Shown here: positions 4,365 through 33,944 of the stretch, in pieces
Numbering within the stretch: the stretch's first letter is position 1
How the letters are laid out: each line of letters opens with the position of its first letter
NCBI GenBank assembly: GCA_021776195.1
Contig: JAJFGK010000030.1
Span: 27,285-91,284, forward strand
From: Kiloniellaceae bacterium
GTDB lineage: Bacteria > Pseudomonadota > Alphaproteobacteria > Kiloniellales > Kiloniellaceae
DNA length: 64,000 bases
Direction of reading: 5' to 3'
Notes under the pieces: model-generated
The model's database searches: none
Told to the model about the DNA's origin: nothing
What the model saw: only the letters and a program-made list of their open reading frames with translations
Made by a program: the position numbers and the translations under genes

Positions 4365-4441
4365 ATTGCCGGGCTTGACCCGGCAATCCAGGGATTGCAC
4401 GGTCTTTGCCATTCCTGGACCCTCGGGTCGAGCCCGAGGGT
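4365..4441. repeat. Composite double-hairpin intergenic repeat, copy B
   Basis: First hairpin 4365-4387: attgccggg / cccggcaat around loop cttga, a perfect 9-bp stem. Second hairpin 4419-4441: accctcggg / cccgagggt around loop tcgag, also perfect. The spacer is 31 bases. This is the same pair of hairpins as at 210-287 but in reverse order, so the two copies are inverted relative to each other. It lies between two minus-strand genes in a gap of about 280 bases that otherwise shows nothing I recognise. Confidence 0.8.
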
Positions 4442-4539
4442 GACAGCAAACAAACGGGCCATTCCTGTAGTCCTTTGAAATCACTCACATCATTTTGAGC
4501 CTGACTCTTAAAACATCGGCCGGGGCCCGACAAGCGGCG

Positions 4540-5823: not shown

Positions 5824-5949
5824 GACGCCGGCCGCCTCAAGGTCAATCGGCCCTTTTTCGATTTTACAGCGCCCGTATCAGGCGGCAGTCTTTTCCCCGC
5901 CGCGGCGCCTTTCGCGCGGCCGGCCGATTCATCCGGGGAGACCACGACC

Positions 5950-6834
5950 ATGGGAAGCCAAGGGCAAGATTGGGGTATCGACAACGACTACGGCGTCCTG
6001 CGCGACGTTCTGCTCGGCAAGCCCGAATTCTACCGCTGGGTCGAGGCCGGGCCGATCATCGGCCGAACCCTCAAAAACGCCGAGCGCACCGGCGTGACCT
6101 TCGATCTGCAGCGCGCCATGGCGCAGCATTCCGCCATGGTCCGCATCTATGAGGAAAACGGCGTCGCCTGCCATTATCTGGAGAGCGACGAAGTGTTGCA
6201 TCGAAACTTCTTCGCCCGGGATTCCAGCGCCATGACCCCTTGGGGCGCCTTGATCTGCCATATGCAGTTGAAATGCCGGCGGGCCGACTATGTGACCGCG
6301 ATCCAGTTCTACCAGGACCAGTCCATCCCGATCTGGAAGATGGTCACGGCGGGTCACTTCGAGGGCGGCGACTTCGTGATCCTGGAGCCTGGCCTGGTGT
6401 TGATCGGCTACTGCGGCGAACGCTCGGAGCAGGCGGGCGCGGAACAGGTCGCCGGCTGGGTCCGCGACGAAGGCTGGGAGGTCGAGGTGGCGCCGATCTC
6501 GCGCGAATTCGTCCATCTGGACGGCCTCGTGGTGCCCCTGGACGAAAAGCGCCTGGTCGTCTGCCTCGATGCCCTGGAGCCCTGGCTGGTCGACTGGCTG
6601 CGCGGCAAGGGCTTCGACTTCGTCGAGGTCGGCTATGGCGAGGCCCGCGACCTGGGAGTCAATCTGGTCAGCCTGGGCGACAAGCGAGTTTTGTCCATGA
6701 AAGGCAGTGAAAAATTGAACGGGACACTTCGCGATCTGGGCTTTACGGTTTACGATCCGGATATGTCGATGTTCACGCTTGGCGGCGGCGGCGTTCATTG
6801 CCTGTGCCAGGCCCTGCGTCGGGATCGCGTCTGA
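5950..6834 (+). CDS. Dimethylarginine dimethylaminohydrolase / amidinotransferase-like guanidine enzyme
   Basis: This 294-residue protein belongs to the guanidino-modifying superfamily (DDAH, arginine deiminase, amidinotransferases), which uses a Cys-His pair to attack a guanidinium carbon. His136 lies in the GHFEGGDF motif and Cys284 in GGGGVHC near the C-terminus, the two hallmark sites. The ATG at 5950 follows a purine-rich stretch and matches the expected family start (DWGIDNDYGVLRDVLLGKPE); the upstream open frame is non-coding for this gene. It is divergent from the M20 hydrolase and followed 125 bases later by a solute-binding protein, suggesting uptake and breakdown of a guanidino or ureido compound. 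The exact substrate is not shown. Confidence 0.8.
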   Translation: MGSQGQDWGIDNDYGVLRDVLLGKPEFYRWVEAGPIIGRTLKNAERTGVTFDLQRAMAQHSAMVRIYEENGVACHYLESDEVLHRNFFARDSSAMTPWGALICHMQLKCRRADYVTAIQFYQDQSIPIWKMVTAGHFEGGDFVILEPGLVLIGYCGERSEQAGAEQVAGWVRDEGWEVEVAPISREFVHLDGLVVPLDEKRLVVCLDALEPWLVDWLRGKGFDFVEVGYGEARDLGVNLVSLGDKRVLSMKGSEKLNGTLRDLGFTVYDPDMSMFTLGGGGVHCLCQALRRDRV

Positions 6835-6959
6835 AGCGAACCGGGCCTTGGCTCCACCCGCCATCGATCCTTGGCCCTAGGCGGAGATCGTCAAGATGCT
6901 AGCCTGATAGGCAAGCAATAATGGGGTAACTCAACGATCCATTCTAAGGGAGGAAGACC

Positions 6960-8546
6960 ATGTCAGAATTGAAGTTTCTTCAGTCCCAGCTCACCAGGGG
7001 CAAGATCGACCGTCGCAAATTCATGGGCCGCGCCGCGGCCCTTGGATTGACCACGGCCATTGCGTCGAGCCTGGCGGGCGAAGCGGTCAAGGCAGCCGGA
7101 CCCAAGAAGGGCGGGCGTTTTCGCCTTGCGCTGGGCGGCGGCGCCACGTCGGATTCCTTCGACCCGGCGACCTACTACGAAACCTATATGCAAACCACGG
7201 GTTACGGCCTGCGCAACAGCCTGGCCGAGATGAACAACAACGACGAGCTGGTTCCCGAGCTGGCCGAGAGCTGGGAGCCCTCCGAGGGCGCCACGAAGTG
7301 GATGATCAAGCTGAGAAAAGACGTCGAGTTTCACAACGGCAAGACCTTCGATGCCGACGACGCCATTGCTTCGGTCATGCATCACCTGGGCCCGGATTCA
7401 AAGTCCTCGGCCAAGGCCATCCTCAGCTCGATCGAGGACATGAAGAAGGACGACGACAACACCGTCATCGTCTCTCTCAATGCCGGCAATGTCGGCTTCC
7501 CGGCCCTCCTGACCGACTACCATGTGCCGATGATGCCGGTGGTCGACGGCAAATTGGAGGTCATGTCCGGGGTTGGGACCGGCGCCTACTCACTGAAATC
7601 CTTCGATCCTGGCCAGCGCATGGAGATGGTCAAGAACCCGAACTTCTGGAAGGAAGGCAAGGGTCACTTCGACGAGGTCGAGGTGCTGTCCGTCATCGAC
7701 GTAGCCGCCCGGACCAATGCACTGGTCAGTGGCGGGGTCGATGCCGCCGACCGGATGGACCTGAAGACCTTGAAGCTGCTGGAGCGCAACAAGGACATCT
7801 CCATCAAGGAGACCTCGGGATCGCAGTACTATGCCTACGTCATGATGACCGACAAGGCGCCCTACGATAATCTCGACGTGCGGCTTGCCATGAAGTACGC
7901 GATCGACCGCGAGGAAATACTCGACAAATTGCTCTACGGGCACGGCTATCTCGGGAACGACAACCCGATCGGCAGGACCTACGCCTACCACGCCGAGTTG
8001 CCGCAACGGGCCTACGATCCCGAAAAGGCGAAGTTCCACTTGAAAAAGGCCGGAATGAGCGATCTGAAGGTGACGATCCACGCTGCCGACGCCGCCTTCC
8101 CCGGCGCGGTCGACGCCGCCTCCATCTACAGCGAGCAGGCTCGTGCGGCAGGAATCGACCTGAAGGTGGTGCGCACGCCCAACGACGGCTACTGGACAAA
8201 TGTCTCGGGCGTCGAGCACTGGACGGCGACTTATTGGAACCCGCGGGTGACCGAAGACATGATGTTCTCGGTGGCCTTTTCCGAGGACGCTCCCTGGAAC
8301 GAGACCAAGTGGAAGCACCCCCGTTTCAACGAACTGCTCAAGGCGGCCCGCATCGAGCTGGACGAGACCAAACGCCGCGACATGTACGTCGAGATGCAGC
8401 AGATCTGCACCGACGACAACGGGGCGATCATCCCGATCTTCGCCAACTACGTCTTCGCGGCCCACAAAAAGGTCGGGCACGACCGGATGGCGGCCTCCTG
8501 GGATCTCGATGGCGTCAAATGTCTCGAGCGTTGGTGGTTCACCTGA
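6960..8546 (+). CDS. ABC transporter substrate-binding protein, family 5, Tat-exported
   Basis: This 528-residue periplasmic binding protein is of the DppA/OppA class (SBP family 5). It carries a twin-arginine signal (DRRKFMGRAAALGLTTA) before a mature start near AAGPKKGGRF. Family landmarks include FDPATYYET, the WMIKLRKDVEFHNGKTF segment and PYDNLDVRLAMKYAIDREEIL. A good ribosome site (aagggaggaa) sits before the ATG. No permease or ATPase gene is adjacent, and it ends at a strong terminator, so it is an orphan. It is clearly related to the binding protein at 42986-44584 (shared DVEFHNGKT, GTGAY/GSGPF and NDGYW/TDGYW segments) and may share that importer. It probably binds a small amino-acid-like or opine-like solute. 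Confidence 0.9.
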   Translation: MSELKFLQSQLTRGKIDRRKFMGRAAALGLTTAIASSLAGEAVKAAGPKKGGRFRLALGGGATSDSFDPATYYETYMQTTGYGLRNSLAEMNNNDELVPELAESWEPSEGATKWMIKLRKDVEFHNGKTFDADDAIASVMHHLGPDSKSSAKAILSSIEDMKKDDDNTVIVSLNAGNVGFPALLTDYHVPMMPVVDGKLEVMSGVGTGAYSLKSFDPGQRMEMVKNPNFWKEGKGHFDEVEVLSVIDVAARTNALVSGGVDAADRMDLKTLKLLERNKDISIKETSGSQYYAYVMMTDKAPYDNLDVRLAMKYAIDREEILDKLLYGHGYLGNDNPIGRTYAYHAELPQRAYDPEKAKFHLKKAGMSDLKVTIHAADAAFPGAVDAASIYSEQARAAGIDLKVVRTPNDGYWTNVSGVEHWTATYWNPRVTEDMMFSVAFSEDAPWNETKWKHPRFNELLKAARIELDETKRRDMYVEMQQICTDDNGAIIPIFANYVFAAHKKVGHDRMAASWDLDGVKCLERWWFT

Positions 8547-8595
8547 TCCAGACCGGCGAGCCGCAGTAGGGGCTCAGCCAATCAGCTTCATGTTC

Positions 8596-8632
8596 AAGAG
8601 CTCCGCAGTTAGAAACTGCGGAGCTCTTTTTT
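8596..8632 (+). terminator. Rho-independent terminator of the solute-binding protein gene
   Basis: A perfect 15-bp stem (8596-8610 aagagctccgcagtt, 8614-8628) with a 3-base loop aga is followed by six T at 8627-8632. It sits 50 bases after the stop codon. Confidence 0.93.
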
Positions 8633-8885
8633 ATAATTTATGACAGGAGCTTGTTGTCTATTTTTAATCTAATAACTCATTGAATTTTTCCGTGGCTTTT
8701 CATGTGAGATGTCGTTGTCCCGTGCCCATCGGCCAGGGCCACCTCCCCATCGTCGACGAGTCGAATGTGTGCCAATCGGGCCTGCCGACAGGCCGGCGCG
8801 TCACCGGTGACTCGAAAATATTGCTAGACAGGGAGACTCAACCGTGATTCGAAGATGCAGGGGATAGTCATCTGGAGGGGTATCA
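8633..8885. other. Intergenic stretch without recognised gene
   Basis: Between the terminator and the small gene at 8886 the sequence is AT-richer to about 8705 and then returns to the local GC content. I see no open frame with a plausible start, no RNA gene and no repeat. The only clear signal is the Shine-Dalgarno run ggagggg at 8873-8879, which belongs to the next gene. Confidence 0.6.
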
Positions 8886-9155
8886 TTGTCAGCTCTGCCT
8901 AAGCCAAGACCGGTGAACCTGGATTCCCGAGATCGGTTTCGCACCCGAGACGATGATAAATGGATCCTCGACCAGCCCATTGAGATCGGCGCCTTTGCCG
9001 AAGTCGTGAAGCGCCACGGCATTCACAATTTCGAATTCTGTTACGACACCGACAGCTTTTCCGCCCACGATGCCACGGGACAGCTTCTCGCGAGAGGCCC
9101 CACGATCAAGGATCTGTTGGCCTCCCTGTCGCGGCCCGAACCCCGAAGCCTGTAA
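8886..9155 (+). CDS. Small conserved-looking hypothetical protein with TTG start
   Basis: This 89-residue product starts at a TTG seven bases after the strong ribosome site ggagggg, and has codon use like its neighbours. I do not recognise a family. The sequence is soluble, with an N-terminal charged segment (RDRFRTRDDDKWILDQP), a middle part IEIGAFAEVVKRHGIHNFEFCYD and a helical C-terminus (TIKDLLASLSRP). It has no signal peptide or membrane segment. It stands alone between a terminator and a tandem-repeat gap before the PilZ gene. Confidence 0.55.
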   Translation: MSALPKPRPVNLDSRDRFRTRDDDKWILDQPIEIGAFAEVVKRHGIHNFEFCYDTDSFSAHDATGQLLARGPTIKDLLASLSRPEPRSL

Positions 9156-9180
9156 GCATGAGCCGGCGACACGGTCAGCG

Positions 9181-9216
9181 CCATGGCCAGCACCATGGCC
9201 AGCACCATGGCCAGCA
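9181..9216. repeat. 12-bp tandem repeat, three units
   Basis: Three exact head-to-tail copies of ccatggccagca run from 9181 to 9216, followed by a degraded partial copy. They lie in the non-coding gap between the small hypothetical gene and the PilZ gene. Confidence 0.85.
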
Positions 9217-9307
9217 CCACGGGCCAAAGCCCGCAGTTTTGGAATGTTAACCAGTTGGCGCTAGCTTTGCCGCCGAATTCGTTCCTATTTTCTGCATTCG
9301 GTTCCCT

Positions 9308-9835
9308 ATGACCAGCGAAGACAGACGCATTTCCGCCCGCACCCGGGTCAGCGGCAAGTCCGTCGTCCTGACCGAAGATAGTCACTTGGATTCCGACCTG
9401 CGCGACATCTCGGCCAGCGGTGCTCAGTTGGCCTTGCGCGAGCGCCCGGAAGTCGGCAGCAACATCGTCGTCTTCACGGAAGAGTTCGGTCGACTCGAGG
9501 CCACGGTCGAGCGTCACACGGTTGCCGGCATCGGGCTCAGCTTCCAGGGCGGCGAACAGATGCGCAAATCGCTGCTGCGGCGCCTCACCGCCTACGCGGA
9601 CCGCTTGCTGGGTAAGTCATTCGGCCAGGCCAACGGCTCACACCGGCTGTTCCTCGAGACCTTGGCCATATCCGGGCGAGTCGCCGCCGAGAGAACCGAT
9701 CGTTCGGCCGCCTTTTGGACGATGGTGGAAGACTGCGAGGGGCGCGGCTGGGTCCGGAGCGATAGCCTCGCCATCGGATTCCAGACCGTTGAAATTACAC
9801 AGTTCGGCCGCGCGCAACTTGCCGGCGGCCACTGA
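9308..9835 (+). CDS. PilZ-domain protein, putative c-di-GMP receptor
   Basis: The N-terminal half is a PilZ domain. The c-di-GMP motif RxxxR is at Arg7-Arg11 (RRISAR) and the D/NxSxxG motif at Asp33-Gly38 (DISASG), with the usual spacing, so ligand binding is likely. The C-terminal 75 residues (from about LLGKSFGQANGS) match no domain I know. The protein is 175 residues, cytoplasmic, with no membrane segment. PilZ proteins pass c-di-GMP levels to motility, exopolysaccharide or other outputs; no partner is adjacent, but flagellar genes are present in the window, including a lone FlgC-like gene 0.8 kb downstream. Confidence 0.8.
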   Translation: MTSEDRRISARTRVSGKSVVLTEDSHLDSDLRDISASGAQLALRERPEVGSNIVVFTEEFGRLEATVERHTVAGIGLSFQGGEQMRKSLLRRLTAYADRLLGKSFGQANGSHRLFLETLAISGRVAAERTDRSAAFWTMVEDCEGRGWVRSDSLAIGFQTVEITQFGRAQLAGGH

Positions 9836-9968
9836 CCGGGCCCCGACTCCCGGGCCGCCCTGTCGCACGCATCTCTGTTCACCGGCAGGCGCTTGTGGCA
9901 AGGATAGCGTTCTACGACCGCGCAGGGCAGCCAGGGCGATGCCGGGCGCACAGCCAAGGGCAAGGACC

Positions 9969-10628
9969 ATGGGTCCGCAAGACCAAGACGAGGGACCACC
10001 GCGCTTCGATGCGGCTTTCCAAGATCAGCTCATGCGCCTGTTCCGTTGGCGCCGCGACGTGCGTCACTTTCGCCGCGACCCCTTGCCCGTGGACCTGCTG
10101 GACGACCTTCTCGCGGTCGCGGAGCTGGCGCCCTCGGTGGGCCTGAGCCAGCCCTGGCGCTTCGTCGAGGTCGCCAGCGCCGAGGCACGGGCCGCCGTGC
10201 TGGCCAATTTTCGACGCTGTAACGCGGAAGCCCTGGACAGCTACAGCGATGAAAACGCGCGCCGCTATGCCGGCCTGAAGCTGTCCGGTCTCCAGGAGGC
10301 CCCTCTCCAACTGGCGGTTTTCTGCGACGAAAGTACGCTCCAAGGCAAGGGCCTGGGCCGGCGCACCATGCCCGAGTCCCTGCGCTATTCGGTGGTGGCG
10401 GCGATTCAGACCCTATGGCTGGCGGCGCGAAGCCGCGGGATCGGGCTCGGTTGGGTCTCGATTCTCGAACCCAAGGCTTTAAGCGAGGAGTTGGCGGTGC
10501 CGGCGGCCTGGCATCTGGTTGCCTACCTCTGTCTCGGCTATCCCAAGGAGGATCATCAGGACCCCGAACTGCAGCGCCGAGATTGGCAACAGCCCACCGG
10601 CCTGGCCGACAAGCTGCTCAAGCGATAG
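9969..10628 (+). CDS. bluB: 5,6-dimethylbenzimidazole synthase BluB
   Basis: This 219-residue nitroreductase-fold flavoprotein breaks down reduced FMN with oxygen to give 5,6-dimethylbenzimidazole, the lower ligand of vitamin B12. Characteristic segments are LMRLFRWRRDVRHFRRDPLP, APSVGLSQPWRFV, the lid-region Asp of DSYSDENARRYAGLKL and GLGWVSILEP. The start at 9969 follows an aagg ribosome site; an ATG 30 bases upstream is also possible. Other cobalamin genes are not next to it, and I found no cobalamin riboswitch in the 130 bases upstream. Confidence 0.9.
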   Translation: MGPQDQDEGPPRFDAAFQDQLMRLFRWRRDVRHFRRDPLPVDLLDDLLAVAELAPSVGLSQPWRFVEVASAEARAAVLANFRRCNAEALDSYSDENARRYAGLKLSGLQEAPLQLAVFCDESTLQGKGLGRRTMPESLRYSVVAAIQTLWLAARSRGIGLGWVSILEPKALSEELAVPAAWHLVAYLCLGYPKEDHQDPELQRRDWQQPTGLADKLLKR

Positions 10629-10662
10629 GCGATCTTCTCGCCAGCGGCATTATTAATCTAGT

Positions 10663-11058
10663 CTACGAAGAAATTCCCAGAAGCTCTTTATAACGATCGT
10701 TTTCTTCCCGAATCAATTGGGCGCTCGCGGCATAGGCGTTGCGCGCCAGGATCTGCGTCACGAACTCTTCGGCCAGGTCCACGTTGGGCACCGGGACGAA
10801 GCCCGCTTCGTCCGCATCGGCGTTATCGGGCTGATAGATTCGCACCGACGCCGGATCGATCGGCACCGCTCGGCCGGTGACACCACCACCGGGCAGACTG
10901 ACGGATTGAACCCGCTCGGGCCGGAAACCGCCGTTGTCGGTCCCGTCCGCGTTCCTGACAAAGCCCAGCGACCCCGCGTTGGCGACGTTGTTGGCCGACA
11001 CTTCCACTATCTTGCTTGCCGTCTGTAGACCTGAAAGGGCCGTGAACATTGCCAGCAA
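10663..11058 (-). CDS. FlgC-like flagellar basal-body rod family protein, isolated
   Basis: This 131-residue protein has the flagellar rod/hook family ends: an N-terminal LSGLQTASKIVEVSANNVANAGSLGF (the ANNVAN motif) and a C-terminal VPNVDLAEEFVTQILARNAYAASAQLI, matching the rod C-terminal domain. It lacks the long middle of FlgG/FlgE and is about the size of FlgC. A regular flgC lies at 63227-63634, so this is a paralogue far from the flagellar cluster. Start at the first or the second Met (MFTALSG) is possible. An AT-rich gap upstream may hold its promoter. It may be a specialised rod or hook-related protein; its role is not established. Confidence 0.8.
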   Translation of the reverse strand: MLAMFTALSGLQTASKIVEVSANNVANAGSLGFVRNADGTDNGGFRPERVQSVSLPGGGVTGRAVPIDPASVRIYQPDNADADEAGFVPVPNVDLAEEFVTQILARNAYAASAQLIREENDRYKELLGISS

Positions 11059-11180
11059 AGCTCCTTCGCCTTGGACGCCGGGAGTCGGGCGCCCAAGTCA
11101 ATCTAGCTCATTGAGGAAAATCCATCAAATAATTGTTATTATTGTATAATTATCTAAAATTCGAGGTAATTCCCGGCTAT

Positions 11181-12302
11181 TCACCAGGGTTCGCCAAGGC
11201 GGCGCTGAAGAAAGGTCTGCGCCACCGCCGCATTCTCGAACAGCAACCACAGCTCCGGCGGCAGGTCCTTGAAGGCGGCGTCGCGGAAGCGGGCGGCGTC
11301 CGGCGCCTCGCCGGTCACATTACGGATCAGGATGGCACGCACCTGATCGGGGTGGCGACGCGCGATGGCACCGTAGACCTCCGGGTCGACCTCGCCGGAA
11401 TCGCCGACCAGCACGAAGCCACGCCCCGGATAGGCGGCCAAGAGCGCCTCGATCACCGGCGGTTTGGTCTCCGCCGAAGATTTGAAGAGGTTGAAGAAGG
11501 TCTCGTCTTTCAGCCGGAAGGGCTTCAAGTCGATGGAGCCCGCGGGCAGGCGGGCTGCAGCCAGGAACTCGGCCAGCGCCGGGTAGAGCTGCCAGGGCGA
11601 GGAGGAGACGTAGTGAAACACCGCCCCACGCTGCTCCAACCCGCGAAACAGCGCCGGCATACCGGGCGCCGCGGCAAAGGGCTTGAGGAAGGTGTTGGCC
11701 AGTAGCGCCTGCTTGTCCGTGACCTCGCTGATCTTCACCGTGTCGTCGATATCCGAGATCACCGATAGTCCTTCGGCCGGCACGAAAAGCGCCCGTCCGG
11801 TGAAGCGGCGCGAATCGCCCGGCGGCGGCACCACGCCATAGTCGAGCCAGAAGGGCGCCGCTTCCGGCCCCTCACCGCGCCGCTCGAGGGTCAGTTCCGC
11901 CCGAAAGTGCCCATCGCTGCCGGTGGGCCCAAGGCGCAGCGCGTCGGCCGAAAGCGTCAGGTCGAGATGCTTGCCCCGCTCATTGTCGACCAGGAACCAG
12001 GACACCCGTTCGCGGAAGATGTCCGATTCGGCAGCCGTCTCATCCAAGCCCAGGGCCAAAGCGGCGGCCACCAGCGCGCCGCGCCGCAGCAGGGAATCGC
12101 GTTCCGGCTCGAAGACCCAGGCGTGAACCGGCAAGACCCAGCGCGCGCCCTCCCCGTCCAGCCGCGCCGCCGTGGGGAAGAGGACGACTTCTTCGTCCGA
12201 CTTCAGGGACGAGGCCAGTCCCGCGCCGCTAACCCCATGGATCGCCAGCCCGGCAAGGCAGACGACCCGTAACGCCGCGCAACAGGCTGGTCCGAGTCGC
12301 AT
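11181..12302 (-). CDS. App1-like (DUF2183) phosphatase with signal peptide
   Basis: The C-terminal half carries the DUF2183/App1 catalytic domain of the HAD superfamily, found in yeast phosphatidate phosphatase App1. The DxDxT motif is at Asp184-Thr188 (SDIDDTVK), followed by YVSSSPWQLYP, KPFRLKDETFF and the GDSGEVDPEVY acidic motif. The start at 12302 gives MRLGPACCAALRVVCLAGLAIHGVSG, a secretion signal, so the enzyme acts outside the cytoplasm; the longer open frame upstream adds unconserved residues. The N-terminal 160 residues resemble the usual DUF2183-associated region. It probably dephosphorylates a lipid or phosphorylated envelope compound. Confidence 0.8.
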   Translation of the reverse strand: MRLGPACCAALRVVCLAGLAIHGVSGAGLASSLKSDEEVVLFPTAARLDGEGARWVLPVHAWVFEPERDSLLRRGALVAAALALGLDETAAESDIFRERVSWFLVDNERGKHLDLTLSADALRLGPTGSDGHFRAELTLERRGEGPEAAPFWLDYGVVPPPGDSRRFTGRALFVPAEGLSVISDIDDTVKISEVTDKQALLANTFLKPFAAAPGMPALFRGLEQRGAVFHYVSSSPWQLYPALAEFLAAARLPAGSIDLKPFRLKDETFFNLFKSSAETKPPVIEALLAAYPGRGFVLVGDSGEVDPEVYGAIARRHPDQVRAILIRNVTGEAPDAARFRDAAFKDLPPELWLLFENAAVAQTFLQRRLGEPW

Positions 12303-12666
12303 CGACGCCTCCCGTTTCCTGAATAGCCCGGCGCGGAATCTAGCAGACCACCGCGCAGAAGGATGCAGAGCATTGGCACACCAATTTTGATAAAGCAAAT
12401 TAAGATACTCTAGGAAAATACTGTAATTATTGATATTTATTTAATTTTTCCGATCCGAAAATTAATTGAAACGAAGGAGTTTCCCGCAGGGCACAGCGAA
12501 GGCACAGCCATCATTCAGCATCGGCACAGCCAGCTCGCTACCTTTGTTTTCGGCACTGCCGCCCTTGGCATGCCCTGTTCCCCTGAAAGGAAATGGGTCC
12601 TTCGCGGGGAGACGCAGACCGGAACCAAAGGCCGGTAAACGGCGCAAAACGAGAGGACTAGAGATC

Positions 12667-13056
12667 ATGAGGATCATTCAGAGCCTGAGCAGGACCGAAC
12701 TTCGCCAACGCCTCATTGCCGGGATTGTCTTGTTGCCCCTGGCAACTCTCCCCCTGACCGCCACGGCGGACGTGGACTTTGTCGGTGGCCATCTCGACCC
12801 CCAATCACCTTCGCATACGCCGTCCCTAGTAAGCGCGTCCGCAGACAAGATTGGCGCGATCGCGTCCGGCACGACCGCGACCTCGGACCAACCGCCCGCG
12901 CCAAGGGCCGGATTGGCCAACAGCGGCTCCAACCTGGCACAGCTCGCCACAGACGCCACCTGGAACGTCCGGGTGGCCGGGCTGCTCCGCAGCGCCATCG
13001 ACGAGGCCGAGGCCGGCGCCCCGGACCGCGGCACGGGCCTGCACAGTATCAACTAA
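12667..13056 (+). CDS. Small exported hypothetical protein
   Basis: This 129-residue product begins at an ATG preceded by gagaggactagag. Residues 1-35 form a signal peptide (charged start, then RLIAGIVLLPLATLPLTATADV). The mature part is Ser/Thr/Pro-rich and low in complexity, ending in a helical segment (NVRVAGLLRSAIDEAEAG). I know no family. It lies 98 bases before the OmpA-family gene on the same strand and might be co-transcribed with it. Upstream (12388-12475) is an unusually AT-rich stretch that may carry the promoter. Confidence 0.55.
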   Translation: MRIIQSLSRTELRQRLIAGIVLLPLATLPLTATADVDFVGGHLDPQSPSHTPSLVSASADKIGAIASGTTATSDQPPAPRAGLANSGSNLAQLATDATWNVRVAGLLRSAIDEAEAGAPDRGTGLHSIN

Positions 13057-20250: not shown

Positions 20251-21069
20251 ATGGGCAAGTCCTTCAAAGCGGTTTTCAATCCCGAACTGTTTCCACCCAT
20301 GCCCCAGGTCCGCGACCCGTCGGACTTCGAGCGGAAGTGGGCCGTCAACAGTCCGGCGGTGCTGGCAAACATGGCTCACGCGGCCTATCTGGACCCGGCC
20401 CCGCTCACCGAACTCATCGAGCGGTTGGGTGCGAGAAAGCCTTTCATTTACGACCGCAGGGGCGCCCAGGCTTTCCTCGCGGTGTGGCCCGACAAAGCCA
20501 TTCTGGGATTTCGCGGGTCGCAAGCCAGGGAACGCCGGGTCCGCGCGCCCAGCGGCATCAGGGCCAAGGCGGTCGCCAATTTGCTGCAATCCGGCTTCAA
20601 CAAGGAACTGGGTACATTTCTCGCCAACGACGTGCTGGCGGACTTGAACTTCAGGAAGACGCTGGTTGATCGCGGGCAGGGCGTGGCGGTCCACACCGGT
20701 TTTCTGGGCGAATTGAAGAAGCTCTGGGGCGCTATTTCGGACGATCTCAGAACGGAGACCGTCGGCGTGCCGGTTTGGGCGACCGGCCACAGCCTCGGCG
20801 CCGCCATGGCGACCATCGCGGGGATGCGTTACCCCTTCGAAGAAGTGGTGACCTTCGGCGAACCCAGGGTCGGCATCAGAATAGAACGGTCCTTTCGCGC
20901 CAAGAGACACGTCCGCTACGTCAATGGCGACGACCCGGTCACCCTGGTGCCGCCGGAAATCGGATTTGGCTACCAGCACCATGGCGAAGTTGTCCGCATC
21001 TGCGACCCCGATGGGCGGACCGATTACAAGTACGATCATTCGATCGTTTACTACGCACAGAACCTGTGA
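20251..21069 (+). CDS. Class 3 (alpha/beta-hydrolase) lipase-like protein
   Basis: This 272-residue protein is of the lipase class 3 family. The nucleophile elbow is ATGHSLGAAMA with Ser181; a likely acid is Asp227 or Asp228 (NGDDPVTLVPP), and His263 (YDHSIVYY) completes the triad. FRGSQA is the oxyanion region. There is no signal peptide, so it is probably cytoplasmic or secreted by another route. Such enzymes hydrolyse acylglycerols or phospholipids. It stands alone between the efflux pump and the convergent pssA. Confidence 0.8.
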   Translation: MGKSFKAVFNPELFPPMPQVRDPSDFERKWAVNSPAVLANMAHAAYLDPAPLTELIERLGARKPFIYDRRGAQAFLAVWPDKAILGFRGSQARERRVRAPSGIRAKAVANLLQSGFNKELGTFLANDVLADLNFRKTLVDRGQGVAVHTGFLGELKKLWGAISDDLRTETVGVPVWATGHSLGAAMATIAGMRYPFEEVVTFGEPRVGIRIERSFRAKRHVRYVNGDDPVTLVPPEIGFGYQHHGEVVRICDPDGRTDYKYDHSIVYYAQNL

Positions 21070-25340: not shown

Positions 25341-25835
25341 CTACTCCTCCTTGGGCCCACGGAACTTCTTGTGGCAGGCGCCGCAGCCGTTGCCGCCGAA
25401 GGTCTCCATGGCCGCGCCGTAGGCATCGGCGTCGCCGCCACGCAACACGGCCGCCATGACGCCAGCTTCCTTGCCCAGATTGCTGGAGGCGGTTTCGAAG
25501 CCGGCCCAATCGGACCAGATCTCGGGCTTGGCGCGGTTCTTACCGACGGTGGCGCCGTCGGCCTGAACCGCCTCGACCTCGAACAGCCCTGGAATCTTGC
25601 TCGACAGGGCCTGGATGCTATCCGCATGGGCGGCGGCTTCTTCCGCGGTGCCCTTGCCGGCCTTGAGGAATTCGCCAATCGCCTTCATGTGGCCGCCGAT
25701 TGCCTTCATGGCCTTCTGCCGGGCCTCGACCGCCGCCTTGCGCTCGTCGGCCTGCGCGGTCTGGACCCCCATCAGTCCGGCGAACAGAGCAACGGTCAAA
25801 CACATAGCGAACGGCATCCGAAGTATACGCATCAT
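25341..25835 (-). CDS. Cytochrome c' (class II c-type cytochrome)
   Basis: This 164-residue exported protein has a signal peptide (MPFAMCLTVALFAGLMGVQTAQA) and a four-helix cytochrome c' body. The heme site is at the C-terminus, CGACHKKFR, as in this class, where the fifth ligand is that His and the sixth site is often open for NO or CO. The N-terminal pattern ARQKAMKAIGGHMKAIGEFLK is family-like. It precedes the di-heme cytochrome in a two-gene operon. Role may be electron transfer or NO handling. Confidence 0.88.
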   Translation of the reverse strand: MMRILRMPFAMCLTVALFAGLMGVQTAQADERKAAVEARQKAMKAIGGHMKAIGEFLKAGKGTAEEAAAHADSIQALSSKIPGLFEVEAVQADGATVGKNRAKPEIWSDWAGFETASSNLGKEAGVMAAVLRGGDADAYGAAMETFGGNGCGACHKKFRGPKEE

Positions 25836-25991
25836 TTTTCGATCTCCCTTGAAACGGTTCAGTTATCCCTGCCCGAGCGGCGAGGTTTACAAGCCACCTG
25901 TGAAGCGCTTATGAGTCAAACACAGCGGATGGAAGGGATACATCCGGAAAATGGTATGAATGTTCACTTTCTCGTTAGATGATTGGACGTT

Positions 25992-26576
25992 ATGGCCGTC
26001 TTGAAGAATCTCTGTTGCTACTGCGGTTCCTCCAACAGCGTCGACCCCAGCTACTTCGAAATTGCCGCCGACCTGGGCCACCAAGCCGCCAAGCGCGGCG
26101 TCGGCATCGTCTATGGCGGCGGCGGGGTCGGCCTGATGGGCGCGGTCGCCAACGGCGCCATGGCCGAGGACGGGCGGGTCATCGGGATCATCCCGGAGCA
26201 TATCGAGAAGTGGGAACTGGGGCTGAAGGACATCACAGAATACCTGGTGGTCGAGAACATGCACGTTCGCAAGAGCCTGATGTTCGAGCGCTCGGATGCC
26301 TTTTGCGCCCTGCCCGGCGGCATCGGCACGCTGGAAGAAGCCTTCGAAGCCCTGACCTGGCGTCAGCTCGGGATTCACGACAAGCCGATCCTGTTCCTCA
26401 ATCACAAGGGTTTCTGGAATCCGCTGCTGGCGCTCTTCGAGCACATGCTGGCGGAACGCTTCATGAAGCCGCCGCTGGACAGTCTTTTTTCGGTCGCCGG
26501 GACGGTCGAGGAGGTCTTCGCCCTGATCGAAGCCGCCCCGGAACCACGCCGCCCCGACGACCTGGAACAGATTTAG
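25992..26576 (+). CDS. LOG-family protein (cytokinin riboside 5'-monophosphate phosphoribohydrolase type)
   Basis: This 194-residue Rossmann-like protein has the LOG/TIGR00730 motif PGGIGTLEE and the N-terminal signature CCYCGSSNSVDPSYFEIA, with YGGGGVGLMGAVANGAM. LOG enzymes hydrolyse nucleoside 5'-monophosphates at the ribose-base bond; in bacteria the in vivo role is usually purine-related or unknown. The ATG at 25992 is preferred over a TTG at 25983. It stands alone, divergent from the cytochrome genes. Confidence 0.88.
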   Translation: MAVLKNLCCYCGSSNSVDPSYFEIAADLGHQAAKRGVGIVYGGGGVGLMGAVANGAMAEDGRVIGIIPEHIEKWELGLKDITEYLVVENMHVRKSLMFERSDAFCALPGGIGTLEEAFEALTWRQLGIHDKPILFLNHKGFWNPLLALFEHMLAERFMKPPLDSLFSVAGTVEEVFALIEAAPEPRRPDDLEQI

Positions 26577-26928
26577 GATCGGCTGCGTCCCGCGCGCCAA
26601 TCGGCCAGACGGCCCCCCATGCCGTGCGGTCCCTGGACCGCAGGATCTCTGCTTTCCGTTTAGGCGCGTTTAGGCATTAATTTCTTGTCATGAGACGCCC
26701 TTTCATCAATGATCTTAGGTGGTGAAACCCATTCGAATGGGTAAGCCGCCAGTCCTTTTTTGCGTTCGCAATATGCCTCTATTCGTCGGTAGCGCCAGCA
26801 CCGGGCCCAAGGCAAGAGCGAAGGGTCGACAAGCATTCACTTGCGTCTCGTTTGTGGTCTCTTGACCGGTTAGCCGTTGGGACGCGAGACCGGACAGGGC
26901 GCGACAACCGATCGGCCGGGAGCAAACC
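26577..26928. other. Intergenic stretch before the 1235-residue protein gene
   Basis: No gene is evident in these 352 bases. It holds a short hairpin tgcggtcc/ggaccgca (26625-26642, loop ct) without a convincing T run, and a perfect 16-bp palindrome at 26727-26742. The remainder up to the gene start shows no clear promoter by eye. Confidence 0.55.
26727..26742. promoter_or_regulatory. 16-bp perfect palindrome upstream of the unknown two-gene unit
   Basis: acccattcgaatgggt reads the same on both strands and lies 187 bases before the ATG at 26929. It is a plausible site for a dimeric regulator, but no adjacent regulator gene is known and no promoter elements are certain. Confidence 0.4.
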
Positions 26929-29900
26929 ATGGGCGGTGGAACAGCAACGCGCGCGCAAGCCCTCGAAGCCTGGAAGCGGCGCTGGGGATACTTCGGTGGA
27001 AACCCCGACAAGAAAGTAGCGTCCTTCGACGACGGCAACTTCGACCTGCGTTCTCGTCGTGTGCGTCAGCCGGAGCGCAAGGCGACCGACAACACGGGCA
27101 CCGAGAATGGCCACTACAATAATATTGGCGCGAACACCGAAAAACCCCTGGATCCAAAGGTGGCCAAGCTCCAAAGGAAGATCGCCGCGGAGGACGCCGC
27201 TCTGGCGGCCTACGACCCGCGGCAAGAGCCCTTCGTGCTCTCGGCGGCACGCCGGCGACGCAGCCGATTGGCGGTCGACGCAACCGCGGCCAAGGATCAA
27301 ATCACCCAGACTGCCTACAGCGAAGACCGGCGCAAGGAACTGCAGGCATTCGCACCGGATCACTATCTGACCAAGGAGTACGGCCTGCGCACGGCGGAGA
27401 CCGGCCTTCCCTTCGAAGATCAGACCGGGATGCGAATTAGCCATTACGAGAGCTCGATTTATCTGCGCGATGCCCCCGGCGAAGCGGTCCAGGCGCTTTT
27501 TACCGAGGTCTATGAGGCCAGCGACGCCGCCAAGACGGAGGGCGCCTTCGACCCCGATCGGATGTTTTTTACCAACTCGACCAAGACCTTCGACAAACTC
27601 GAAGCCTTCTTCGGCGCGGACTGGGACGCCATCCGAACTGGATTTAACGGCGAATTGAAGGAAATCGAGCCGGGCATCCACGTGATCGTGTTCGAGAACG
27701 TCCTGCCGAAGAAAGAACGCGATGCCCTGGGAAAGTATCTCTACAGCACCGGCTCGACGCCTTCCAGCTACGATGCCCTGCGCAGCAAACACGGCGGCCG
27801 CGGCCTCGAACCCTTGAGCGGGCCAAAGGCGCCAGAGAGCCTGAAGAACGACGAGACGCTCGGCGGTTTGGCCAAGAGCGAGGCCTGCAAGACCCTCGCG
27901 GCCGTGCCAACCGGCCACCCGATGAAGACTGTCGCGGGCGCGACGGCGAAACTGGTCGCGGGTTTGGAAACAACCCTGGCCGCGACCGTCGCCGACAAGG
28001 GCGAGGCCTTCAACAAGAGCCGGCTGGTCGACAGCGCGCTGAAGAACATCGAGAGCCTCATGGCCGTGATGCCGTCATACCTGGACGACACGCCTCGTTT
28101 CACCAAGCTGTTCGATGTCCTGATCGACGAGCTCTACCTGCTGTTGGCCACCTGCCGTCCCTATGACGGAGCGAGCTTCAAGACAGCGTCGGAAAAGGTC
28201 ATCGAGGCCCGCGCGCCGGTTCTCTCGGAGACCTCCGCGACGGTTTTCAGTTACAGCATGTCCAGCGGCATGGGCGCGATTTCCAATGCCATCCAAAGCG
28301 CGGTGGCCTGTTCGGGCGGCGGGATCTCCGCCAAGGTCGATCTGCTCGATCCGAAAGGCGACAAGGACCGGTTCGGCAGCGCCAACTATTACGAGTTGGA
28401 AAACTACCTGCTGACCTCCGAGGACCAGATCAAGAGCAAGGGGTCGGTCATCGTCGCCACCCTGAATCCCAGCACGCCGACCACCAAGATGGGCGGCGGC
28501 GCCAAGAAAGCCTGGGGCGTCGACAGTGTCGTTGCCGAAGTCCGAAAGAAGTTCGACGCGCTCGCGCCCCCGGCGGACGAAGCGTCGCCCCTGACGGTGG
28601 TGGTCGACATCACCGTGGAGAAAGCATCCGGCGAGGGCACGGATGAACTCGACAAGCTGATCCGCCCCTTCGAGACAGAGGTCGACGCCGGTCTGATCCT
28701 CTTTGTCTTTTGCAAGAGCTACCAAAAGTATCCCAGCCTGGGCAGCGCCAAGATGATGTCCGGCGGTGTATCCCTGGTTGGCAAGGACACCGCTCACAGC
28801 AAGGAGTTGCAAAAGAGCCTGGCCGCGGCGGAGAAGGAAACCGCGCTGATGGACAAGGACGAGGGACAGTTGATGACCCACCTCCTGGCCAACAGCGGCG
28901 AGGCGGAACTGCCGTTGCTGAAGCGCGCGGCCGACAACGCGGCCCTTTTGGCCTCATTGATCGTGGCGGACGGTTCCGACGCCTATCTCTACGGCGATGG
29001 CCTGCCCTTCGCCATGATCCCTTCGACAGAAATGGCGCTGGCGTTCGACAGCGGCGAGGAATACGAGGTGCTGCCCGCAGAGATGTTGGCGTTCAAGTGC
29101 GGCGTGGACTACCGCTACTCCTTTGGCTTTCAGAACTCGTCCTGTCTCGAGATCGGCGAGAGTCTGCGTCTGAACCCCGGCCAGGAATCACCCGCGGAAA
29201 TCGTCGAGCAGTTCTATGCCCTGGGCAAGCTGACCGGCACAACCACGCCCATCAGCGCCGACAAGGTCGTGGGGCTGGCCCACGATGCGGCGGACGCGGC
29301 CTTCGACGAAGTCGAGAGATTCCTCGCCAAAGGCAAGGATAAAGCCGACAACGGGGCCTGGCGCGAACGCATGGAGCGGGTCCTGCTCAAGGCCGGCCTG
29401 ATGACGTCGAAAGAGGTCGGCCTGGAGCCGAAGGAGTTGATCCGACGCATGGCGGAAGCGAAGGGCGCCAAACCCGATAAGGACACCGCTTTCGCCCGCA
29501 AGCTCAAACTGGTCGCCGCCGCGGCGCAGCCGGAACTCACCGCCGAGCAACGCGAATCTGACAACGTCGATCTCATGAAGGCCGGGCTCAAGTGGGGTTG
29601 GGGCGGCACCGAGGAAGGCTCCGACAAGGTCGAGGCCAATCACCTGCTGAACATCGTGGCCTCCTGCGCCCGCTTCAGCACCGTCTTTCAGGAACCGGCG
29701 GACGCCAAGAAGACGATGGCGCTGGTCGATGCCTTGCGGGACTGCGGCATGGCGCAGGTGAGCCCGGCGACCCGCGAGGCGCTTTTGCAGACCCGAGCCA
29801 AATCGCTCCTCGATGGCAAGCCGCCCTTCTCGGAAGGCGACCTCAAGACCCTCGCGGCCTGCGCCAGGGAGATGCCCTACAGCGATGGCGTCGCCAATCT

Positions 29901-30636
29901 CTTCGCGAGCGAGATCCCCGCCGCCGCCTTCACGGACATCGACAAGGCCGAATCCCCGGAGATGGCGTGCCTCTCCGACTGCTTTTTGAACCGCCTCGAT
30001 CTCGAGTCGAAACTCGAGCTCATCCCCCGCCTGATCAAGGATATCGATCCATTTCTCGAAAGGGCCCGCGAGCAGAAGGGGAATGCTGACAACTGGACGA
30101 AGAAGGCGGAAAAATCGGACAAGAATTCCATTACTTGCGAGGCATCGGCTGTCCACTGCGAGACGGAGAGCCAAAAGAGCCTTCTAGAATCGCAGAAATT
30201 TGAGCTGAATGCGGCCGAGTTCGACACGCGAGGAGAGGCAGCCGAGGCCAAGAAGGCACGAACGAAAGCACGGTTGCTCAAGGAAGAATCGGACCTCTAC
30301 AAGGCCGAAATCCCCACTTGGCGCCAAGAAGTCATCGACCACCGGGACAAGGCCGCTGAACGCCGCAATACGGCTGCGGAAGAAGCCGCGATGGCGAAGC
30401 GAACTTTGGGCGAGGCCAAGGCCTGCGTCACCCGGGCCTGGGCCTGCGTGAAGCATCTGGAGCGCGCGCTCGCGGCCGCCAAAATAAAGGGCGGTGCCAA
30501 GCCGCGCGAGACGCTCGCCAGCAAGGATTTGGGCGCCGTCGAACCCAACCCACTGAGCGAGACCGAGCGCAAGCGCTTGAAGACAGAATTGAAGCGCCTC
30601 AAGGCCACGCTCGCCAAGGTCGATCCGAAGATCTAG
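26929..30636 (+). CDS. 1235-residue protein of unknown function with PLP fold-type I-like core and C-terminal coiled coil
   Basis: I do not recognise a named family. The protein is cytoplasmic (no signal or membrane helix). Residues about 440-620 carry a set of landmarks that follow the order of Cys/Met-metabolism PLP enzymes: SSGMGAIS (445-452; phosphate-binding loop in that family), LNPSTP (512-517; the NP of the EtpsNP motif), VVVDIT with Asp560 (pyridine-N aspartate), and CKSYQKYPSLGSAK, where Ser597-x-x-Lys600-Tyr resembles the SATKY lysine motif. Spacing is longer than in cystathionine gamma-synthase, so there are insertions. Residues 1-430 and 680-1030 are of unknown fold; about 1040-1200 is a long charged helix likely to be a coiled coil. 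Ordinary codon use. The next gene starts 31 bases downstream and is probably co-transcribed. PLP binding is an inference. Confidence 0.6.
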   Translation: MGGGTATRAQALEAWKRRWGYFGGNPDKKVASFDDGNFDLRSRRVRQPERKATDNTGTENGHYNNIGANTEKPLDPKVAKLQRKIAAEDAALAAYDPRQEPFVLSAARRRRSRLAVDATAAKDQITQTAYSEDRRKELQAFAPDHYLTKEYGLRTAETGLPFEDQTGMRISHYESSIYLRDAPGEAVQALFTEVYEASDAAKTEGAFDPDRMFFTNSTKTFDKLEAFFGADWDAIRTGFNGELKEIEPGIHVIVFENVLPKKERDALGKYLYSTGSTPSSYDALRSKHGGRGLEPLSGPKAPESLKNDETLGGLAKSEACKTLAAVPTGHPMKTVAGATAKLVAGLETTLAATVADKGEAFNKSRLVDSALKNIESLMAVMPSYLDDTPRFTKLFDVLIDELYLLLATCRPYDGASFKTASEKVIEARAPVLSETSATVFSYSMSSGMGAISNAIQSAVACSGGGISAKVDLLDPKGDKDRFGSANYYELENYLLTSEDQIKSKGSVIVATLNPSTPTTKMGGGAKKAWGVDSVVAEVRKKFDALAPPADEASPLTVVVDITVEKASGEGTDELDKLIRPFETEVDAGLILFVFCKSYQKYPSLGSAKMMSGGVSLVGKDTAHSKELQKSLAAAEKETALMDKDEGQLMTHLLANSGEAELPLLKRAADNAALLASLIVADGSDAYLYGDGLPFAMIPSTEMALAFDSGEEYEVLPAEMLAFKCGVDYRYSFGFQNSSCLEIGESLRLNPGQESPAEIVEQFYALGKLTGTTTPISADKVVGLAHDAADAAFDEVERFLAKGKDKADNGAWRERMERVLLKAGLMTSKEVGLEPKELIRRMAEAKGAKPDKDTAFARKLKLVAAAAQPELTAEQRESDNVDLMKAGLKWGWGGTEEGSDKVEANHLLNIVASCARFSTVFQEPADAKKTMALVDALRDCGMAQVSPATREALLQTRAKSLLDGKPPFSEGDLKTLAACAREMPYSDGVANLFASEIPAAAFTDIDKAESPEMACLSDCFLNRLDLESKLELIPRLIKDIDPFLERAREQKGNADNWTKKAEKSDKNSITCEASAVHCETESQKSLLESQKFELNAAEFDTRGEAAEAKKARTKARLLKEESDLYKAEIPTWRQEVIDHRDKAAERRNTAAEEAAMAKRTLGEAKACVTRAWACVKHLERALAAAKIKGGAKPRETLASKDLGAVEPNPLSETERKRLKTELKRLKATLAKVDPKI

Positions 30637-30667
30637 TCCGGCCGCAAGAATCCAAACGAGGCCCGTC

Positions 30668-31738
30668 ATGGCACAGCAACAAGCGCAAATCGACCCCAAG
30701 GAGGAACTTCAGGAGCTGAAGCAGATGATCGGCAAGGCGCGCAAACGCGCGGTCAGCTTTGCCATCGCGCTGGGCAAGGGAAAGGAAGAGCCCGCTTTCC
30801 TGCTGCACCTCATCCAGCGTCCTCAAGCCCTGCGCCGGCAGGCGAAGACCGAGACCGGCAGTGCCCGGGGCGCCCACGGCAAGATGACCGTCGACGGTAA
30901 GTACATCACGCTTGATTGCCTGGACGACGATCCGCCGCCGATCCTCTTCAAGGTCATGAAGCGCTATCTGAAAGACCGCAAGCTGCCCTACAAGTTCGTC
31001 CTGAAGGGGCCCGGCGGCCAGGTCGTCGGCGAGAGCGAGGTTCTGGAGCCCGGCGCGGCGGCGAACGAGGACGAGCCCGATCCCAGCGACCCGCGCGAGG
31101 CAATCAAGGCGCTGCTGCCCGATCTGATGGCCGATCTCGCGGCCCTGGAAAAGCTCGACCCCGAGACCGCGGCCAAACTGCGCAAGCTGGCCGGCCACGC
31201 CGCCGAGCAGGCCAAGAAGGGCGATCTGCAGGAGGCCATGCGGCTCTTCGATAGCTGTACCACGGCCCTGGGCAAGGCGCAGACCAGGGCGCGCGGCGCC
31301 CAGGCCGCCGCCGCCATCCCCGAGGGCCGGGTCGCCGAGATCGTGCGCCGGGTGGAGCTGGCCCGCTCGGTCTGGCAGACCCAGCGGATGCGCACGATCA
31401 CCGGGTTGGACGATCTGATCGCCGAACTGCGCGATCACGAGGATTCGGAACTTCAAGCCATCGCCGGCCGGATCGCCGTGCTGTCCAAGGATATTCCAGC
31501 GCAGATCGACGCCGCGCTCGAAAAATTGGGGAGCGCCCTGGAGACAGGCGAACCAACGGGAATCGAAACGGCCAAGGCCGCTGTCCTGAAAGAGCTGGGC
31601 GGCGGCACCGCCTACTTGACGGCCAACCGAACCGAACTGGTCAACTGCGAGGAGAATCCCTTCGGGATCAAGCTGGCCATCGTCCAGCCCCTGGCCGAGT
31701 CCCTGAAGGCGATCCGCACCAGCATCGGCGCGATTTAG
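30668..31738 (+). CDS. Unknown protein, partner of the 1235-residue protein
   Basis: This 356-residue soluble protein starts 31 bases after the upstream stop. Residues about 5-130 look like one domain (KARKRAVSFAIALGKGKEEPAFL, TVDGKYITLDCLDDDPPPILFK, LPYKFVLKGPGGQVVGESEVLEP), followed by an acidic linker and a long helical region rich in Ala, Leu and Lys. The C-terminus has a NPFGIKLAI motif that I have the impression recurs at the end of other bacterial hypothetical proteins; I cannot verify this here. No signal peptide or membrane helix. Function unknown; adaptor, chaperone or structural partner for the large protein is conceivable. Confidence 0.6.
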   Translation: MAQQQAQIDPKEELQELKQMIGKARKRAVSFAIALGKGKEEPAFLLHLIQRPQALRRQAKTETGSARGAHGKMTVDGKYITLDCLDDDPPPILFKVMKRYLKDRKLPYKFVLKGPGGQVVGESEVLEPGAAANEDEPDPSDPREAIKALLPDLMADLAALEKLDPETAAKLRKLAGHAAEQAKKGDLQEAMRLFDSCTTALGKAQTRARGAQAAAAIPEGRVAEIVRRVELARSVWQTQRMRTITGLDDLIAELRDHEDSELQAIAGRIAVLSKDIPAQIDAALEKLGSALETGEPTGIETAKAAVLKELGGGTAYLTANRTELVNCEENPFGIKLAIVQPLAESLKAIRTSIGAI

Positions 31739-31762
31739 AAAGGCGATTCCGGCTTGTCGCCT

Positions 31763-32227
31763 TCAGGGGCCCTGGAGCCCCGTGAAGTAGGCCAGCCAGT
31801 GCTGCCGCAGATCCTCTTCCTTCGCGCCGATGTCGTAGGCCGGGCTGACCAGCGGCGCGGCGCGCTCGACCTTGATCACCACGATCCCATTGAACAGCTC
31901 GCAGAGATCGCCCCACTCGGCCTGGAAGCGCGGCAAGAGGCGGGCGTAGTCATCCGTCTCGCGGGCCAGGAACCGGGCCGGTCCCTTGAAGCGGTAACCC
32001 TTGCGCGCGAAGACGTCGATGAAGTTGAGCTCGACGACCGGGTTCCGCGCCAGGTTCGCCACCGTGTTGGGCGAGCGCATCTCGCCGAACATGATCTGCT
32101 CGTCGTCGAGCACCAGGAAGGTCCCCTTGGGCGACAGGTTGGGCGTCCCGTCGGCGCAGACCGAGGCCAGGCTCGCCAGCTTCTGCTCGGCGATCACCCG
32201 CTTCATGTCGGCGGTCAGAATGGCCAT
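31763..32227 (-). CDS. Pyridoxamine 5'-phosphate oxidase-like flavin-binding protein
   Basis: This 154-residue split-barrel protein of the PNPOx-like family begins MAILTADMKRVIAEQKLASLASV at 32227 (an upstream ATG adds ten residues). CADGTPNLSPKGTFLVLDDEQIMFGEMRSPNTVANL matches FMN-binding members that act on FMN, F420 or heme. Convergent with the two unknown genes and at the end of the hydantoinase run (hyuB stop is 13 bases upstream), so probably co-transcribed with hyuA-hyuB. Its substrate is unknown; a real pyridoxamine phosphate oxidase is longer and more specific. Confidence 0.8.
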   Translation of the reverse strand: MAILTADMKRVIAEQKLASLASVCADGTPNLSPKGTFLVLDDEQIMFGEMRSPNTVANLARNPVVELNFIDVFARKGYRFKGPARFLARETDDYARLLPRFQAEWGDLCELFNGIVVIKVERAAPLVSPAYDIGAKEEDLRQHWLAYFTGLQGP

Positions 32228-32240
32228 GGCCTCCCTCCCC

Positions 32241-33944
32241 TCACTCGACCCGGCCATAGGCGGCCATCGCTGCCTCGGGGGTTACATAGCCCTCGCTGAT
32301 ATCCCGGGCGATGGCGGCGCCGGGACGCTCGTCTGGCGGGCCGTAGCCACCGCCGCCCGCTGTATAGAGCGTCAGGACGTCGCCCTTTTGCAGGTCGAAC
32401 TGCCCCTTGCTGGGGAGTTGTGTGACCGCGCCGTCGCGCAGGATCTCGCAGCGCGTACGGGCGCCGTCGCCGCCGCCGAAGAGACCGAAGGGCGCCAGCT
32501 TCACCCGGTCGGTGTAGCAGGCGAAGTTGGTGTCGTCCTTCAGCACCAGGAAACGCCGGAACAGCCCCAGGCCGCCGCGGCTGCGGCCATGCCCGCAGGA
32601 ATCCGGTATCAGCCCATAGCCGATGACCCGGAAATGATCGAAATCCATGTCCACCGTCTCGACCGGGACGTTGGTGCAGTTCGACAGGGCGGAATCGACC
32701 GCATCGCAGCCATCGATCCGCGGCGAGCCGCCGAAGCCGCCGCCGAATATCTCCAGGTAGACCTTGTAGCGGCTGCCCGCCAGGTGCGACAGCGCCATGG
32801 AGTGGGTGCTGTCGTTGCCGCCGGCGATGACCTTGTCCGGCGCCACCTGGGCCAGGGCCTTGATGACCGCATCGAAGCAGCGGTAGGCCGACAGCATGCG
32901 GGCGCGCACCGGCGCGGGATAGGTCGGATTGACCAGCGTGCCCTCGGGCGCGCTGACCTCGGTCACCCGTTTGACGCCCTCGTTGAAGGGGATGTCGGCG
33001 CTGGTCAGGCTGGCCTTGACCGCCGCCAGGGTGGCGGAAATGGTCGAGGCCCAGGGGCAGTTGAGATTGCGCCGGACCTGGGGGCAGGTGCCGGCGAAAT
33101 CCACCGCGATGGAATCGCCCTTCACCGTGACCTTGGCCTTCACCACCAGGGGCTCGTCGCTGAGGCCGTCGTCGTCGATGGCGTCCTCGCCGAAGTACTC
33201 GCCGTCGGGAAGATCGGCCAGGGCGGCGCGGAACCGGCGCTCGGAATAGGCCATCAGATCGTGCATCGAGCGGCAGACCTTGGCCGGCCCATACTTGCGG
33301 CAGAGCTGGCCGACCCGTTCCATGCCGATCGCGTTGGCGGCGAACTGGGCATAGAAATCGCCGATGGTCTGATCCGGCACGCGGATGTTGGCGGCGACGA
33401 AGCGCTCCAGCGGCCCGCCCGACCAGTCGCGCTTCAGGTTGTAGACCGAGGGCGGAAAGATCAGCCCCTCGGCGTGCACGTCACTGGCGTCGGGCGTCAT
33501 CCCCGGATTGCCGCCGCCCAAGTCGAGGTGGTGCGAGACGGTGCCGGCGAAGCCGACCAGCTCGCCCTCCCAGAAGATCGGCGTGAAGATGAAGACGTCC
33601 TGCAGGTGCTGGCCGCCGCCATAGGGGTCGTTGTTGATGTAGAAGTCCCCCTCCCCCAGGGTCTCGGGCGGGAAGAGCTCGGCACAGGCCCGGAAGGTGT
33701 CGGACATGGGGCCCAACTGCATGGGGATCAGCTCGGCCTGGGCGACCACGTTGCCGTAGCGGTCGAACAGCCCCGCCGAGGCGTCTTGCGCCTCGCGCAC
33801 GATGTTGGAATAGGACGAGCGGACCAGCTTGACGCCCATCTCGCGGGCGCCGGCCAATAGAGACTGGCTGATCACCGCATACTCGACCGGGTCGAGCGCC
33901 GCCTCGCTAAACGTCGTATCTAGGGGTTCGTTGCTGTCGGGCAT
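32241..33944 (-). CDS. Hydantoinase B/oxoprolinase family protein
   Basis: This 567-residue protein is the B subunit of the ATP-dependent hydantoinase/oxoprolinase family (N-methylhydantoinase, acetone/acetophenone carboxylase-like). Typical segments are DPVEYAVISQSLLAGAREMGV, IREAQDASAGLFD, YINNDPYGGGQHLQD and GGGDGARTRCEI. The subunit works with HyuA, whose stop is three bases upstream of this start, to hydrolyse or carboxylate a cyclic imide or ketone using ATP. It lies in the catabolic block, with the M24/DddP-like gene on the far side of hyuA. Confidence 0.9.
   Translation of the reverse strand: MPDSNEPLDTTFSEAALDPVEYAVISQSLLAGAREMGVKLVRSSYSNIVREAQDASAGLFDRYGNVVAQAELIPMQLGPMSDTFRACAELFPPETLGEGDFYINNDPYGGGQHLQDVFIFTPIFWEGELVGFAGTVSHHLDLGGGNPGMTPDASDVHAEGLIFPPSVYNLKRDWSGGPLERFVAANIRVPDQTIGDFYAQFAANAIGMERVGQLCRKYGPAKVCRSMHDLMAYSERRFRAALADLPDGEYFGEDAIDDDGLSDEPLVVKAKVTVKGDSIAVDFAGTCPQVRRNLNCPWASTISATLAAVKASLTSADIPFNEGVKRVTEVSAPEGTLVNPTYPAPVRARMLSAYRCFDAVIKALAQVAPDKVIAGGNDSTHSMALSHLAGSRYKVYLEIFGGGFGGSPRIDGCDAVDSALSNCTNVPVETVDMDFDHFRVIGYGLIPDSCGHGRSRGGLGLFRRFLVLKDDTNFACYTDRVKLAPFGLFGGGDGARTRCEILRDGAVTQLPSKGQFDLQKGDVLTLYTAGGGGYGPPDERPGAAIARDISEGYVTPEAAMAAYGRVE

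Follow-up and report, generated by a model that had tools for sequence, protein, structure and literature searches.

Enzymes of the cystathionine gamma-synthase (CGS) type, which PF01053 unites as CGS, CGL, CBL, MGL and MetY, use pyridoxal phosphate (PLP) on a fold of type I and carry, in a fixed order, an SGM phosphate-binding loop (P-loop), an asparagine, an aspartate and a lysine followed by tyrosine or phenylalanine. The roles of such residues in CGS enzymes are the basis of the assignments made below, and the N-terminal motif YxRxxNPT holds a YxR pair that contacts the PLP phosphate of the neighbouring subunit. Here, we analyse P0001, a giant CGS-like protein of 1235 amino acids that is encoded on the forward strand at 26929..30636 of a 64,000-nucleotide stretch of DNA (the window) from a Kiloniellaceae bacterium. 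Its core (residues ~170–790) is in our judgement quite probably a CGS-type enzyme with PLP fold type I, and probably a catalytic one, within a new and rare family. P0001 shares with PF01053 the predicted fold and the order of the SGM loop, Asn, Asp and Lys-Tyr/Phe, as well as a glycine-rich stretch past the lysine and a C-terminal R-x-x-G-x-E, and it very probably works like the members of that family. The P0001 family, which escapes recognition by every profile library used here, would then illustrate the extent to which the CGS fold can diverge with its active site kept.

The frame of P0001 is free of internal stops over its whole length, the GC content at codon positions 1/2/3 (0.61/0.45/0.81) is of the coding type, and GGGAG stands just 5' of the ATG. 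A first-pass annotation of the DNA letters had pointed to four motifs, and the translation holds all of them: SSGMGAIS at residues 445–452 (28261..28284), the proposed phosphate-binding loop; LNPSTP at residues 512–517 (28462..28479); VVVDIT at 557 with Asp560, the proposed pyridine-nitrogen aspartate (28606..28608), which closes a predicted strand; and SYQKY at 597 with Lys600, the proposed Schiff-base lysine (28717..28731). To these is added RLNPGQE at 747 (29167..29187), the apparent counterpart of the CGS motif R-L-S-x-G-x-E with its substrate carboxylate arginine. These residues were followed in an alignment (A5) of P0001 with 16 relatives, in which the P0001 segment spans 721 columns and all members have a residue at 576 of them. 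Although the members share only 23–55% identity with the P0001 segment and 21–36% in many other pairs, 41 of the 576 columns are invariant, including S446, G447, M448, Y487, E489, D560, T562, E564, K596, S597, Q599, K600, K608, G612, R747, G751 and E753 and, further upstream, R134, Y178 and R180. Y487 and E489 belong to a Y487-Y-E489 motif (28387..28395) whose tyrosine might stack on PLP. Five of six landmark residues (S446, G447, D560, S597 and K600) are invariant and the sixth, N513, is kept in 16/17 members (P514 in 13/17), which speaks for motifs beyond chance; the corresponding hypergeometric P of ~8e-6 is indicative only, because the six residues were picked by hand from the motifs of the first-pass annotation and because such residue types are conserved more often.

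The structure prediction calculated from the 17 sequences is confident and gives a CGS-type structural match, which together with the invariance of the predicted residues bears out the CGS-type PLP core that had been suspected from the motifs; it took the place of a first, weak model from 5 sequences (predicted local distance difference test, pLDDT, 61.3; predicted template modelling score, pTM, 0.62). CGS-type proteins make up 49 of the 50 VIA structural rows shown, and in 38 of the 50 the alignment begins at model residue 326 or later. Accidental likeness of the motifs on another fold, for which the lack of any sequence-family match could be cited, is largely refuted by this confident model and the invariance, and we regard it as very improbable. 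The first Foldseek rows belonged to class I/II aminotransferases and to LmbF/CcbF, which use PLP on the fold type that is also predicted for the P0001 core.

The distinction between CGS enzymes and aminotransferases was pursued by aligning, with HHalign, the core profile of the P0001 family (residues 436–790) to a CGS-family profile built from 24 proteins of sampled genomes; length filters had kept 24 of 30 CGS and 17 of 20 aminotransferase sequences. The best local segment set the R747 region on CGS RLSVGLE (score 30.1), the second one, co-linear with it, set the P-loop on CGS ASGMAAI (27.8), and all 300 column shuffles stayed below 30.1 (top shuffle 27.4). As the match is local and confined to the R747 segment and the P-loop, masking of the motifs left the score almost the same. 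The profile of 17 aminotransferases reached only 15.9 on the whole core, so that it gave no signal there, and the core of P0001 has CGS-type landmarks at its N- and its C-terminal end, among them the C-terminal R-L-x-x-G-x-E; with the VIA rows, these results make it quite improbable that the nearer kin of the core are class I/II aminotransferases rather than CGS. Several outcomes of the profile comparison nevertheless count against assignment of the core to the CGS kind. The formal HHalign probability of the CGS match is 7.4%, and residues 500–640, which include N513, D560 and K600, performed no better than shuffles (163/300), scored 13.6 against CGS and 15.9 against the aminotransferase profile, and thus receive no profile support as a stretch alone. 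Full-length realignments placed D560 and K600 on the CGS Asp and Lys with low confidence, but the comparison restricted to 500–640 put K600 on the CGS Lys and D560 not on the CGS Asp. In a comparison with 30 CGS sequences, which left out 1 of 31 CGS and 10 of 30 aminotransferase loci that had no open frame with the motif used, the best probability was 3.7% and the first local match set VVVDI on a non-catalytic CGS stretch.

The first-pass annotation had left it between a divergent catalytic module and a catalytically dead one used for binding; the divergent CGS-like core is borne out, and judged from its residues it is more likely to be active than dead. A real PLP fold that serves as a binding or scaffolding domain without amino-acid chemistry, PLP being present or absent, would suit the great size of the protein, the large insertion, the coiled-coil-like tail and the residue before the candidate Schiff-base lysine, which is Gln in 17/17 members where CGS has Thr (SxQK instead of SxTK). 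Dead domains, however, usually lose their catalytic residues, and Lys600, Asp560 and Arg747 are invariant among members as diverged as these, so that we consider a dead module unlikely. For the preferred catalytic CGS-type core we infer PLP binding, a reaction class and residue roles as follows. PLP would be bound to Lys600 as internal aldimine, its phosphate gripped by Ser597 together with the SSGM loop, probably with help from Y178 and R180, its ring nitrogen held by Asp560 and its O3' side by Asn513, while Arg747 would bind the substrate carboxylate. The substrate would be an L-amino acid whose beta or gamma carbon undergoes elimination or replacement. The insertion and the two terminal modules may control how substrate enters, how the protein assembles or how it binds a partner, which might be the product of the neighbouring gene P0006.

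P0001 differs from PF01053 by an insertion of ~240 amino acids before the P-loop and by extra N- and C-terminal modules, and a scan of all 17 members gave no PF01053 match at E <= 10, so that the gathering cut-off is not reached. The invariant Y178-x-R180 (27460..27468) may correspond to the YxR pair of CGS enzymes, but it lacks the NPT of the N-terminal motif and lies ~265 residues upstream of the P-loop, from which predicted secondary structure and alignment separate it by ~240 mostly helical residues; this insertion and a short alpha/beta part occupy residues ~185–436 (27481..28236). Because the profile score and the N-terminal motif both fall short, P0001 is kept out of PF01053. The CGS-type chains among the VIA rows are mostly 336–430 residues long, compared with 938–1682 amino acids for the members of the P0001 family found here. 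Among the rows shown, the longest alignments (361–368 residues) were obtained with the gamma-lyase CndF (8zij, 8zif, 8zil), which we take to be of fungal origin. Since these alignments start already at model residue 106–110, part of the extra N-terminal region of P0001 may be common to CndF, and the structural match suggests, as a lead, that the CGS-type fold occurs elsewhere in a longer form. CndF, however, with 461–474 residues seen, has less than half the length of P0001, superimposes with a root mean square deviation of 3.8–4.1 Å at 15–16% identity and shows no sequence match; nothing on CndF was found in the literature library searched.

Outside the core, the N-terminal segment (residues 1–79, 26929..27165) carries the motif R..AL.AWK.RWG, which among the aligned relatives is common to P0001 and its close relatives P0002–P0004 only. 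The C-terminal helical region (residues ~791–1235, 29299..30636) includes RAWACVKHLER and a coiled-coil-like stretch. The long coiled coil proposed in the first-pass annotation is partly supported, as residues ~1009–1176 contain few Pro and Gly and heptad periodicity is strong in places. In P0002 (1682 amino acids), a C-terminal module of ~260 amino acids that ends at the RAWACV region occurs as two tandem copies with 39% identity.

P0001 is, as judged from sequence comparison, a member of a new and rare protein family that is recognised by none of the profile libraries used. A search of ~5.8 billion proteins with P0001 returned three close relatives, P0002–P0004 (41–44% identity), and since only ~8,000 word-sharing candidates were scored per search, the family is possibly larger. 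P0002 and P0004 come from contigs of 46,993 bases of the same source, probably one and the same contig, and paralogues of the family occur on single contigs. P0005 from B. arboris and P0007–P0018 were recovered by profile searches; named records among them come from Pseudoduganella namucuonensis, Marinomonas balearica and Pokkaliibacter, the latter with two proteins of neighbouring locus numbers. Where a source gives the relatives a name, it is only 'hypothetical' or 'uncharacterized' protein, and their N-termini are variable in the alignment. In samples of the B. arboris order, class and family, which overlap, 1/399, 1/369 and 1/398 genomes matched, always the same B. arboris genome; a scan of genome contigs with P0005 had B. 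arboris as the sole match, the same scan with alignment A1 yielded zero relatives, and the plasmid records gave a second B. arboris strain as the sole relative. No relative was found in viral contigs and phage records, so that a phage origin of P0001 receives no support. Pfam, PHROGs and NCBIfam contained no relevant family match, nor did PADLOC for the 5 proteins scanned, and searches of PDB sequences with P0001, A1 and A5 retrieved no PLP enzyme. Rfam at gathering scores gave nothing in 25800–32300, and promoter and terminator scans were uninformative. The titles and abstract beginnings listed by the searches of the literature library contain no description of a P0001-type family, and the passages on 'pyridoxal' in PMC12448352 concern an aminotransferase unrelated to it.

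P0006 (356 amino acids, 30668..31738, forward strand), which starts 31 bp 3' of P0001 and has no family match above any cut-off, is the probable operon partner of P0001. Upstream of P0001 lies a LOG/lysine-decarboxylase-like gene (25983–26576), and metabolic genes surround the pair, including those for cytochrome c', phosphatidylserine decarboxylase and hydantoinase A and B. The N-terminal ~105 amino acids of P0006 also open proteins of 1848 and 1894 amino acids on Leisingera and Phaeobacter plasmids, the 1848-amino-acid protein having an HExxH near its C-terminus. A near-full-length P0006 relative is encoded on an Eleftheria terrae plasmid, where the nearest RebB (R-body) gene is ~4 kb and type VI secretion system (T6SS) genes are ~8 kb away; a sample of 274 genomes gave another match, single and weak (E 1.1e-4). 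The B. arboris locus (14–12886) comprises VgrG-like, tetratricopeptide repeat and PAAR-RHS genes, then a transposase-like helix-turn-helix gene and downstream of it P0005, the PAAR-RHS gene being ~2 kb and the VgrG-like gene ~8 kb from P0005. The second B. arboris strain has flanks 99% identical to these and ~1.9 kb where the first has 0.3 kb. The neighbourhoods of P0005 and of the P0006 relatives thus hint at an accessory or effector role, with the T6SS linkage as a lead.

It is possible, if doubtful, that P0001 leaves the cell as an effector, by export or injection, and acts with P0006-type helpers on the amino-acid metabolism of another cell, which would be compatible with an enzyme of the CGS kind. 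The rarity and patchiness of the family, the paralogues on single contigs, the variable N-termini, the vicinity of P0005 to PAAR-RHS and VgrG-like genes, two type III secretin matches above cut-off in the B. arboris genome and the ~105-amino-acid start that P0006 has in common with giant proteins of plasmids, one of which carries a C-terminal HExxH, would all fit such a role. On the other hand, genes for type III or VI secretion were absent from the 29 other open reading frames of the window that were scanned with Pfam (the remaining ones were unscanned), the transposase-like gene stands between the RHS gene and P0005, and the secretin matches are on contigs other than that of P0005. The more specific idea that P0001 is a delivered giant CGS-like enzyme that brings its own scaffold along with a P0006-type helper and, in a competitor or host cell, draws off or breaks down a homoserine-type metabolite or a sulfur amino acid, seems to us rather doubtful; delivery to other cells, if true, would make P0001 an unusual kind of metabolic effector. 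Elsewhere in the window, a lipase class 3 protein encoded at 20251–21069 shows a weak RHS-repeat match, and its gene adjoins an RND efflux gene pair.
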